Origin: a virus | Reading direction: 5' to 3' (one strand) | DNA length: 25,160 nt | Virus record (IMG/VR): IMGVR_UViG_3300023268_000004 | Location: 1-25,160 of that record | Part shown: one piece after another, positions 4,590-10,431 of the stretch | How positions within the stretch are numbered: the stretch's first letter is position 1 | Layout of the letters: every line of letters begins with the position of its first letter | Made by a program: the position numbers and the translations under genes | Notes under the pieces: model-generated | Told to the model about the DNA's origin: nothing | Seen by the model: the letters and a program-made list of their open reading frames with translations, nothing else | Database searches by the model: none

Positions 4590-5065
4590 CTGATCACGAA
4601 CATGACTATTGGCGGACCCCGTCTGGTGCGTTGGAGTGCGCATGTGGCGAATCCCGGCGTGCAGTAACCGTCGTTCGCGAGCCTGCGCGCAGTTGGTCTT
4701 TTCCGCTGCACTTCGTCCGCCCACCGAGGGGCCTGTCGGCGAACGATCGTCCGCATTGGGCCACGAAGCACGAATCCACCCAGCAGGTGCGACTGATGGT
4801 GATGAGCGCGGCGCAGAACATCCCGCAGCTCGAGCGCTGCCGCGTCGATGTCGAGTGGGTGGTCATCACCCGGCACCGGCGCGACACCGACAACCTCGCC
4901 CCGTTTATGAAGGCGATCTACGACGGCATCGGTGCGGACAAGGGCATCAGCGCCCACATCGTTCCCGACGACGACCCTGAGCACATGGAGAAGCGCGGCG
5001 CGACGATCCGGTACGACAAGGCCGGCCCTGCGCTCTTCAACGTCACGATCACCGAACTCACCTGA
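4586..5065 (+). CDS. rusA: RusA-family Holliday junction resolvase
   Basis: This should be a homodimeric, Mg-dependent enzyme that cuts Holliday junctions and branched replication intermediates. The family signature is clear: RRDTDNLAPFMKAIYDGIG has the acidic residues Asp100/Asp102, Asn103, Lys109 and Asp113, and a further acidic patch follows at DDD 128-130. The start at ATG 4586 is set by a strong AGGAG about 9 nt upstream and an overlap with the previous stop. An alternative ATG at 4541 lacks this. The N-terminus (HEHDYW...ECACGESR) adds about 30 residues with H/C groups that may bind a metal ion. Total length (159) is slightly above typical RusA (about 120), because of this extension. 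Confidence 0.88.
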   Translation: MTDHEHDYWRTPSGALECACGESRRAVTVVREPARSWSFPLHFVRPPRGLSANDRPHWATKHESTQQVRLMVMSAAQNIPQLERCRVDVEWVVITRHRRDTDNLAPFMKAIYDGIGADKGISAHIVPDDDPEHMEKRGATIRYDKAGPALFNVTITELT

Positions 5066-5856: not shown

Positions 5857-6063
5857 CTATTCGGTGGTTTCGCCCACCCGTGAGGCCTTGACTGCTCCGT
5901 GCTCGGTCATGCCGAGGCGGTTAGCGATCTCTCGCCATGTGACGGGCGGGTCTTCCTCTCGTGCTCGCTTGATCAACGCTGCACGACGAGCGGGAGCGCC
6001 GTCCATGAACGCTTTGTACTCATCGAGCTCTTCGCGAATTCCCATGCGAGCACGGTAGCACAT
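5857..6063 (-). CDS. Small helix-turn-helix protein on the minus strand
   Basis: The 68-residue protein carries a helix-turn-helix at about 41-60 (VTWREIANRLGMTEHGAVKA: WREIANRL helix, GMT turn, recognition helix). The N-terminus is a charged helix (EELDEYKAFMDG). It could start at 6063 or at ATG 6045 (MGIREELDEY). Neither has a strong ribosome site. The gene is transcribed away from the next rightward gene and shares the 6064-6244 region, which holds palindromes. This is the classical layout of a phage regulator controlling a divergent promoter region. It may equally be a small transcription factor of unknown target. Confidence 0.68.
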   Translation of the reverse strand: MCYRARMGIREELDEYKAFMDGAPARRAALIKRAREEDPPVTWREIANRLGMTEHGAVKASRVGETTE

Positions 6064-6158
6064 ACCTACCGAGAATTACCTAACTAGAGTTGCGTAGAGT
6101 GCCGAACCGTGCCATGCTCGTTACGTAACCGCAGTTTGGTAATCCAAATTGTGGCTCA
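6064..6158. promoter_or_regulatory. Divergent control region with palindromes (candidate operators)
   Basis: This is AT-richer than its surroundings and lies between divergent genes. It contains the perfect palindrome GTTACGTAAC (6120-6129) and the inverted repeat TTTGG-taat-CCAAA (6135-6148). Two ACCTA copies and AACT-ag-AGTT lie near 6066-6090. A candidate rightward promoter is TTGCGT followed by 17 nt and CATGCT, which is weak. Binding by the adjacent helix-turn-helix protein is inferred. Confidence 0.5.
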
Positions 6159-6213
6159 CCGGGCGGGGTCTCTGAGTATTCGGAGCCTCGAACACCAACT
6201 GGTGCCCGCCCGG
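6159..6213 (+). other. Structured leader RNA (long stem with internal hairpin)
   Basis: CCGGGCGGG (6159-6167) pairs perfectly with CCCGCCCGG (6205-6213) across 37 nt, and CACCA-ac-TGGTG (6193-6204) forms an inner hairpin. It ends 31 nt before the start at 6245, leaving the ribosome site free. It could be a regulatory leader or a transcription attenuator. It does not have the layout of a tRNA. Confidence 0.5.
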
Positions 6214-6244
6214 CCCTCAATTTCTCCCGATGAAAGGGCCGCTG

Positions 6245-6598
6245 ATGGCTGAGAGCACGAACGGAACGGGCGGGATGCCTGATCTGCGGGAACGGCTGGC
6301 CGTGGCTGAGCAGATGAACTCGATGGCTGCGTCGGCGGGCCTTGAGGTTGAGCTTGTGTCGATCAGTCGGTACGGGACGCCGGTCAAGTTGCAGGTTTCG
6401 AACGACGATCACAGTCCTTCCGGTGCGGAGCGGGCGGCGTCGGCTCTGCTCACGATGTGGCCGCGCTGGGATTTGCAGGAGATGCGTGGTCTTCTGTATC
6501 TCAGCGCCACAGTCGGTGACACTGCTGCCCAGTTTTATTTCGGTTCCGGGTCTGCCGACAATGTTCGTGCCCTCCGCGCTGTGGTGGTGTCGGCATGA
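6245..6598 (+). CDS. Unknown 117-residue protein, first gene of the right-hand small-gene operon
   Basis: ATG 6245 is chosen because GAAAGGG lies 7 nt upstream. ATG 6230 would add five residues without a ribosome site. The protein is hydrophilic: a helical N-half (LRERLAVAEQMNSMAASAGL) then a mixed region with TVGDTAAQFYFGSGSADNVR. No family is recognised. It follows the structured leader directly, so it is the first gene of the downstream transcript, and it overlaps the next small gene by 4 nt. Confidence 0.7.
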   Translation: MAESTNGTGGMPDLRERLAVAEQMNSMAASAGLEVELVSISRYGTPVKLQVSNDDHSPSGAERAASALLTMWPRWDLQEMRGLLYLSATVGDTAAQFYFGSGSADNVRALRAVVVSA

Positions 6599-6705
6599 TC
6601 CGCCGCCGCTCCACTTTCGTCGCCCCGCGCCGTTCCTGGCTGCCATCGTTCCTCCGCCGGCGCGGGTACGCGGCCGATTTCAAGTGGCAAGGTTCGGTCC
6701 GGTGA
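6595..6705 (+). CDS. Very basic 36-residue peptide
   Basis: ATG 6595 overlaps the previous TGA. The peptide has many arginines (MIRRRSTFVAPRRSW... LRRRGYAAD) and its stop overlaps the next GTG. The high positive charge suggests nucleic-acid or membrane-surface binding, but no family is known. It is supported mainly by exact stop-start overlaps on both sides. Confidence 0.5.
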   Translation: MIRRRSTFVAPRRSWLPSFLRRRGYAADFKWQGSVR

Positions 6706-6812
6706 TCGCCGTGAACCGGGTGAAGGGGTGGATTGCTGCTGTGGTGATTTCCGCGTTCATCTGGACGGTCATCGTTGTGGCGATCACCCAGATTGCAGCG
6801 GCTCTCTCATGA
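6702..6812 (+). CDS. 36-residue single-pass membrane peptide
   Basis: GTG 6702 overlaps the stop of the preceding gene. After a basic start (NRVKG) there is one long hydrophobic segment, WIAAVVISAFIWTVIVVAI, long enough to span the membrane, and a short polar tail. Its stop overlaps the next ATG. It is one of three consecutive genes of this shape. Function is unknown. Holin-like, membrane-anchoring or superinfection roles are possible but not shown. Confidence 0.6.
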   Translation: MIAVNRVKGWIAAVVISAFIWTVIVVAITQIAAALS

Positions 6813-6904
6813 CCCGCAGACAGTTGGCTTTCGTCCTCGGGATGACTGGGGTGGCTGTGACCTTCGCGATTCTCGTTTTCATCGTCCCGGTGGCGTCACT
6901 GTGA
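6809..6904 (+). CDS. 31-residue single-pass membrane peptide
   Basis: ATG 6809 overlaps the previous stop by 4 nt. MTRRQ is followed by a hydrophobic run (LAFVLGMTGVAVTFAILVFI) to the end, VPVASL. This gives the basic N-end, helix and short tail of a membrane peptide. It overlaps the next GTG. Unrecognised. Confidence 0.58.
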   Translation: MTRRQLAFVLGMTGVAVTFAILVFIVPVASL

Positions 6905-6993
6905 GCCGCTCGGATCGCATCGCCCTGGCGTTGCCCATCATCTTTACCGCCGCCGTTCTGGTTGCGGTGATCATCAGTCACATCGCCGGTTGA
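6901..6993 (+). CDS. 30-residue single-pass membrane peptide
   Basis: GTG 6901 overlaps the previous stop. MSRSDR is followed by IALALPIIFTAAVLVAVIIS and a short HIAG tail. This is the third single-helix peptide in a row, of nearly the same size as the other two. The DUF4406 gene starts 17 nt downstream with its own ribosome site. Confidence 0.58.
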   Translation: MSRSDRIALALPIIFTAAVLVAVIISHIAG

Positions 6994-7010
6994 CGGCGAG
7001 GAAGGCAACC

Positions 7011-7406
7011 ATGATCGTCTACGTCGCGGGCCCGATGAGCGGCCTCCCCGATTTCAACTATCCGGCGTTCACCTCGGCTGAGTTCCAGCTGCGGGAGCGC
7101 GGTTTCGATGTGCAGAACCCTGTCGCGTCGGAGGCGGAGAACCTGTCGGGTGCCCCGGAGTCGTGGGATTGGTACATGCGCCGCGCACTGCGGATGGTGA
7201 CACTCTCGGACGGCATCTGCCTTCTCCCGGGCTGGCAAGCATCGAAGGGCGCGAACCTCGAGGTGACGGTAGCGGAAGCGCTCAGCCTCGACATTCGCCC
7301 GTTCGACGAGTGGCTGAAAGAGAAAGTCCCCGCAGACACCTGCACTGGGGTCGTTCGAGTGCGGGAACCCAGATTGTCGCTGCCACGATTCGGAACGGTT
7401 GCGTGA
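7011..7406 (+). CDS. DUF4406 family protein (nucleoside deoxyribosyltransferase-like fold)
   Basis: The 131-residue protein shows the DUF4406 pattern: YVAGPMSGLPDFNYPAF at 4-20, WDWYMRRAL at 52-60 and ICLLPGWQASKGANLEVTVA at 69-88. The family has the Rossmann-like fold of nucleoside 2-deoxyribosyltransferases and is common in phages. It is thought to act on nucleotides, but the substrate is not established. ATG 7011 is preferred for GAGGAAGG 4-11 nt upstream. A TTG at 6990 is weaker. After about residue 98 (DEWLKEKVP) the 0-frame tail (ADTCTGVVRVREPRLSL...) looks less protein-like than the +1 frame, so the C-terminus may be altered by a frameshift. Confidence 0.85.
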   Translation: MIVYVAGPMSGLPDFNYPAFTSAEFQLRERGFDVQNPVASEAENLSGAPESWDWYMRRALRMVTLSDGICLLPGWQASKGANLEVTVAEALSLDIRPFDEWLKEKVPADTCTGVVRVREPRLSLPRFGTVA

Positions 7407-9685: not shown

Positions 9686-9846
9686 GCGAGGACTACTGGA
9701 CCCGCAAATGTGACTGTGCAGACTGTGGTGTACACCTCGGCCACCAACACCGCCCAGGATGCCCACACCACGTCGAGACTGGCACCTGCCCGGCATGCCA
9801 TGGTGAGTTCGGGCGCCACTTCGACGGATGCGAGATGGCCCCATGA
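9682..9846 (+). CDS. Cysteine/histidine-rich 54-residue mini-protein, probably zinc-binding
   Basis: ATG 9682 has GGAG at 6-nt spacing. The product contains CDCADC, HLGHQHRPGCPHH, TCPACHGEF and HFDGC, giving about eight Cys and six or more His in 54 residues. Two zinc sites are plausible. It has no larger family that I recognise. Its stop overlaps the lipoprotein ATG at 9843. It forms a pair with the Cys-rich gene just before it. Confidence 0.65.
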   Translation: MSEDYWTRKCDCADCGVHLGHQHRPGCPHHVETGTCPACHGEFGRHFDGCEMAP

Positions 9847-10034
9847 AACGGATACCGCTGATCGTATTGGCGACACTGACTGCGGCGATCCTCACCGGGT
9901 GTGCGCAGACGGCGGCGGATGTGAAGCGGGATGCCGCGTTGGCGAAGGTCTGCCACGAGCACGGCGGGAAGGTGTATTACGCCGACCCGTATGGTGACAT
10001 CGCCTGCGACTTCACAGACCGGACAAAGCCGTGA
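9843..10034 (+). CDS. Small lipoprotein, 63 residues
   Basis: MKRIPLIVLATLTAAILTGC is a type II signal peptide: basic start, hydrophobic core and lipobox LTGC with the lipidated cysteine at residue 20. The mature part, about 43 residues (CAQTAADVKRDAALAKVCHE, ending PYGDIACDF...), has two more cysteines that could form a disulfide outside the cell. Phage lipoproteins of this size often block superinfection at the cell surface. That role is inferred from type only. Confidence 0.72.
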   Translation: MKRIPLIVLATLTAAILTGCAQTAADVKRDAALAKVCHEHGGKVYYADPYGDIACDFTDRTKP

Positions 10035-10276: not shown

Positions 10277-10431
10277 TGCGGATAGGCGATGCGCTCGCCG
10301 CGTTCATGGAACAGCTTGCCGAATCCTTACGCATCCACAACCATGCGGAGTTCGCATCCTGGTATGAGCAGGGATACGAACAGGGACGGCAAGACACGAT
10401 CGACCAGTTGACAGGACGAAAGCATGAGTGA
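10273..10431 (+). CDS. Unknown 52-residue protein
   Basis: ATG 10273 overlaps the previous TGA and has AGGAGA 7 nt upstream. It is helical: ALAAFMEQLAESLRIHNHAE, then SWYEQGYEQGRQDTIDQLTG. The repeated YEQG is a short internal repetition. Its stop region overlaps the next ATG at 10424. Unrecognised. Confidence 0.66.
   Translation: MMRIGDALAAFMEQLAESLRIHNHAEFASWYEQGYEQGRQDTIDQLTGRKHE

Follow-up and report, generated by a model that had tools for sequence, protein, structure and literature searches.

Three overlapping genes for predicted single-helix membrane peptides among the non-structural genes of an actinobacterial tailed phage

The DNA analysed here, a 25,160-bp IMG/VR fragment (the window), is part of an actinobacterial tailed phage and contains three consecutive ORFs of 36, 31 and 30 codons (TM1, TM2 and TM3), each specifying a short basic N-terminus followed by a single hydrophobic stretch. 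In all likelihood TM1–3 are real genes, and the trio most likely illustrates, in a fairly ordinary way, how quickly accessory genes of phages change, with a function that is only predicted. Our preferred reading, to which we give slightly better than even credence, is that the trio encodes separately translated, single-pass peptides that belong to an early operon, turn over rapidly as accessory functions and act at the host membrane. The frames, overlaps, basic starts and helices described in the first-pass annotation were all confirmed, as was its remark that such genes are easily overlooked by automatic annotation, a risk that the short length of the trio does carry.

6702..6812, + strand: TM1, predicted 36-aa single-helix membrane peptide; GTG start with AAGG upstream; MIAVNRVKGWIAAVVISAFIWTVIVVAITQIAAALS
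6809..6904, + strand: TM2, predicted 31-aa single-helix membrane peptide; ATG start in an ATGA overlap; MTRRQLAFVLGMTGVAVTFAILVFIVPVASL
6901..6993, + strand: TM3, predicted 30-aa single-helix membrane peptide; GTG start in a GTGA overlap, with GGTGG upstream; MSRSDRIALALPIIFTAAVLVAVIISHIAG

The junctions at the TM1, TM2 and TM3 starts read GTGA, ATGA and GTGA, respectively, and each is a 4-nt stop-start overlap (−4). No Shine-Dalgarno sequence was seen before the TM2 start, which is probably reached by reinitiation. The best 19-residue Kyte-Doolittle means are 2.65 for TM1, 2.59 for TM2 and 2.95 for TM3. When the three peptides were compared with each other they were not among the better-scoring pairs, and hence there is no sign of duplication.

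The G+C contents of the first, second and third codon positions are.54/.46/.73 for TM1,.56/.44/.75 for TM2 and.58/.48/.77 for TM3, which resemble those of other genes of the same phage and include third-position values of 0.73–0.77. Codon log-likelihoods are positive in the real frame of all three ORFs and modest in size because the genes are so short. The weakest codon signal is that of TM3, for which the +2 frame scores about equally on synonymous codons alone. The chain formed by TM1–3 is far beyond what chance would be expected to produce. Simulated first-order Markov sequence of the window's composition (3.0 Mb) contained no −4-linked hydrophobic pair or triple (ORFs of 20–45 aa, Kyte-Doolittle mean ≥2.5, −4 overlap). 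In 3.9 Mb of real phage DNA, with both strands counted and ORFs of ≤75 aa, the trio was the only triple (also seen in its own copy, L001) and was accompanied by five pairs; relaxing the limit to 90 aa added one further triple, in the related phage L168. It is therefore highly improbable that the frames are non-functional, whether as chance frames or as remnants of a broken three-helix gene. Such an origin would suit their very short length, their lack of homologues and the weak codon signal of TM3, but it is opposed by the empty simulation, by the gene-like codon-position composition of all three frames, and by the junctions: at two independent places an exact −4 overlap leads into a new basic N-terminus, which is unlike random frameshifts and would have to yield the same orientation three times.

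Relatives of the capsid gene were found at 45 IMG/VR loci and in genomes of Microbacterium nanhaiense, M. thalli and Nakamurella. The left part of the window carries methyltransferase, HNH, replication, RusA-like and DUF4406 genes, and the terminase, portal and capsid genes begin to the right of these at 13.7 kb. TM1–3 are placed among the replication, methyltransferase, RusA-like and DUF4406 genes, away from the structural ones. The near-identical contigs L088, L106 and L190 end at window positions 10410, 10530 and 4484, flanking a stretch of 4.5–10.4 kb that includes the trio; these ends perhaps mark a variable module that breaks assemblies, or may be due to chance. The trio itself lies within a block of genes (6245–7406) that begins after a non-coding stretch, and the neighbouring features are as follows.

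5857..6063, − strand: small HTH-like protein of 68 aa, candidate regulator; weak Pfam HTH matches below the cut-off (E 0.03–0.12)
6063..6143, no strand: region with a tandem repeat of 14 nt and an inverted repeat of 22 nt, candidate operator/promoter
6159..6213, + strand: leader hairpin upstream of the block, 9-bp perfect G+C stem, without an Rfam match
6245..6598, + strand: 117-aa protein, first gene of the block, without known family; family and viral homologue searches empty
6595..6705, + strand: 36-aa peptide, very basic (10 R/K versus 1 D), with a −4 overlap to each neighbour; MIRRRSTFVAPRRSWLPSFLRRRGYAADFKWQGSVR
7011..7406, + strand: DUF4406 / nucleoside 2-deoxyribosyltransferase-like protein, next gene after TM3; PF14359 E 2e-23, phrog_355 E 7e-33

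The HTH-like gene is divergent, being transcribed away from the block, and the repeats that lie between the two (a 14-nt tandem repeat at 6063–6090 and a 22-nt imperfect inverted repeat at 6075–6096 / 6122–6143) could be an operator. The leader hairpin is mildly more stable than its shuffles (z −1.96). No sigma-70 consensus promoter was found near the block by a scan that covers actinobacterial promoters poorly, and neither a terminator nor an Rfam family was found in the block region. As a search marker, the first gene of the block (117/122 aa) gave no convincing match and is an orphan. The very basic peptide that had been noted ahead of the trio is present, with weaker coding support than the three helix ORFs. 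The DUF4406 gene has its own strong Shine-Dalgarno sequence, GAGGAAGG, and its product has a 69% relative in L002, while the 175-aa protein encoded upstream has a 68% relative in L189.

An involvement of the trio in lysis timing had also been suggested. This is now disfavoured by contig L106 (with L174), which shows 18 mismatches to the window in 14,631 bp and runs on past its end. In this contig the tail genes are followed by those for a VanY/M15-like protein, for a coiled-coil protein weakly matched to a holin (E 5e-4) and for a multi-helix membrane protein; the Pfam match of the first (E 1e-4) falls slightly short of the cut-off, and its best PHROG is a tape-measure/peptidase family. Together these genes make up a putative lysis cassette, which lies about 25 kb downstream of the trio. 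It occupies window-equivalent positions of about 32.1–34.3 kb, and a collagen-like repeat protein is encoded between the VanY/M15-like and holin-like genes. Most Microbacterium phages have the lysis cassette after the tail genes (PMC7302621), and lysis timing by TM1–3 is unlikely because the putative cassette is in this usual place. Furthermore, no endolysin gene was found near the trio using PHROGs, Pfam and the gene neighbourhood. In actinophages, lysis cassettes frequently include more than one small membrane protein of holin-like type, one-helix forms among them (PMC13148394; PMC13056207), which would be in keeping with holin-like or lysis-timing proteins. Given the distant cassette and the lack of an endolysin gene nearby, we nevertheless consider such a role for TM1–3 very unlikely.

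Database comparisons indicate that TM1–3 are orphans. There was no family match in Pfam, PHROGs, NCBIfam or PADLOC, and no homologue when the trio was used as a single query in IMG/VR or as a query against 39 related virus records. In 400 genomes from the family of M. nanhaiense only weak matches were obtained, all within open frames of >130 aa, and a DNA search with 6230–7010 against 38 related records gave only chance-sized matches. A 31-aa peptide of L156 resembles TM2 by eye, yet the similarity falls within that of shuffled sequences (p 0.07–0.17), and the values for TM3 against peptides of L157 and L162 (p 0.03–0.04 among about 40 comparisons) amount to chance. A 30-aa match at 5173 in L156 was rejected as the tail of a larger secreted protein rather than a separate gene. 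A secreted protein with a LAATG sortase-like motif, a helix and a basic tail is encoded at 4654–5265 of L156 and is possibly a cell-wall-anchored phage protein.

The type of gene recurs in related phages, and the expectation that the helices would be conserved in them thus holds for the gene type, as coupled membrane ORFs, and fails for the sequences, which have no homologues. Relatives were scanned for hydrophobic ORFs of 25–80 aa with coupling or a Shine-Dalgarno sequence, a lenient scan whose counts are upper estimates, and most records yielded one to four such ORFs, mostly on the coding strand. Most related phages have one to three coupled membrane ORFs of this size among their early genes. 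Coupled membrane ORFs of 25–80 aa, located before the terminase gene and mostly on the coding strand, were found in L156, L157, L158, L162, L164, L166, L168, L172, L133, L189, L193 and L194. TM1–3 share the traits of this class, namely a length of 25–80 aa, one or two helices, −4 or −1 overlaps with neighbours, the coding strand, and a position in the non-structural region upstream of the terminase gene. L002/L172 have membrane ORFs of 43 and 55 aa near DUF4406, and L189 has membrane ORFs of 31–39 aa and 61 aa about 1.6–2.2 kb downstream of the gene for its 175-aa relative. The position of the trio is not kept, as L156, with 92% capsid identity, has its mini-ORFs upstream of the replication gene, and this counts against our preferred reading.

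A coupled pair, consisting of a 36-aa one-helix ORF and a 57-aa two-helix ORF, is common to L193, L194 and L196–L200 (five phages, L196 and L199 being the same contigs as L193 and L194). It is located at 862–1142 in L193, at 1462–1742 in L194 and at about 1391–1674 in L196–L200, and is apparently undescribed and without a database name. For the 36-mer, dN/dS is 0.39 (L193 versus L194), or 0.50 pooled over the five phages, which suggests mild purifying selection, although with few sites and related pairs these values give an indication and no firm result. The 57-aa homologue of L157/L203 is preceded, in the same place as the 36-mer, by an unrelated helix peptide of 40 aa, and in L201/L202 a mini peptide before the 57-aa homologue was not found. 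The gene type is thus maintained even as sequences are exchanged or disappear, and mini membrane proteins of this kind appear to turn over fast and to be open to swapping.

The stop-start overlaps had been taken to suggest a hetero-oligomer in the membrane. This is a weak argument: −4 or −1 overlaps link at least a dozen other gene pairs in the window, mostly with soluble products, and because the same phage joins so many genes in this way the overlaps by themselves are no argument for a complex. In prokaryotes, on the other hand, short overlaps are enriched between genes for subunits of heteromeric complexes, and reinitiation at such overlaps is established (PMC10666635), so a complex retains some plausibility. 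That TM1–3 form one hetero-oligomeric membrane complex, its stoichiometry set by coupled translation, would fit the strict −4 coupling across all three genes, as well as the conservation in relatives of a coupled one-helix and two-helix pair. We nonetheless regard it as unlikely, since overlaps of this kind occur all over the phage between genes for unrelated soluble products, and since in the relatives the two-helix protein can stay the same while its one-helix partner is swapped or absent, which weighs against an obligate complex in those phages. The more specific proposal that TM1–3 make up a new and minimal hetero-oligomeric device in the membrane (an exclusion pore, say, or a blocker of injection), in which all three subunits are obligate and reinitiation governs the stoichiometry, is a slim prospect.

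Returning to the preferred reading of fast-turnover accessory peptides, we infer that TM1–3 would be translated separately, in series with their neighbours, by stop-start reinitiation, and that each would span the membrane once with its N-terminus inside, as predicted by the positive-inside rule. The trio would belong to an early, non-structural operon of the phage, and its products would act on the cytoplasmic membrane of the host at an early stage of infection or lysogeny; the most likely effect there would be to block the entry of competing phages or to adjust host membrane proteins. To name exclusion specifically as their function is a guess that we hold only tentatively, and TM1–3 did not match known exclusion or defence families in PHROGs, Pfam, NCBIfam or PADLOC. 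A probable small lipoprotein of 63 aa with the lipobox LTGC, encoded at 9843–10034 on the + strand of the window, is another candidate exclusion-type protein; its PHROG matches are weak and all of unknown function. The peptides might instead be growth inhibitors resembling type I toxins, depolarising the membrane for host takeover or addiction. Membrane type I toxins are generally <60 aa with one predicted helix (PMC8309996), a size and hydrophobicity that TM1–3 fit, and small phage membrane proteins can be toxic on overexpression (PMC13148394). This is distinctly unlikely, however, in that searches at the block turned up neither a gene for an antisense RNA nor a match in Rfam nor a consensus promoter in the opposing direction (actinobacterial promoters being poorly covered), three coupled genes in a longer operon would be an unusual toxin-antitoxin anatomy, and a family match is lacking.

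The trio clearly exemplifies a pattern that is invisible to sequence-based families: within one group, phages retain tiny membrane genes as a type, coupling included, but exchange their sequences. Should the peptides exclude other phages, an arms race would predict such turnover. Coupled membrane ORFs of 30 aa in such genomes merit annotation.

Among known systems, membrane type I toxins of the TisB/Hok/Ibs type resemble TM1–3 in being <60 aa with one hydrophobic helix, but TM1–3 differ from them in having no family match and in forming three genes of one coupled operon, and no antitoxin RNA signal was found with Rfam and the consensus-promoter scan. The holin-like proteins of actinophage lysis cassettes are likewise several small membrane proteins side by side, but they adjoin endolysin genes, whereas the trio is in the early region of a phage that has its own putative cassette elsewhere. 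The array in the capsid relative L168 also has three coupled small membrane ORFs in tandem (41, 68 and 78 aa), but these are larger, two of them have two hydrophobic stretches, and they lack similarity to TM1–3. The 36-aa and 57-aa pair differs from TM1–3 in that its similarity to them is no better than chance, its second gene encodes two helices, and it maps upstream of the replication gene, at a distance of about 7 kb, whereas the trio is downstream of that gene. The pair nevertheless has in common with TM1–3 a tiny single-helix ORF with a basic or charged N-terminus, −4 overlaps and a place in the non-structural region, and the phages that carry it share replication, g216-like and (L157) capsid genes with the phage of the trio.
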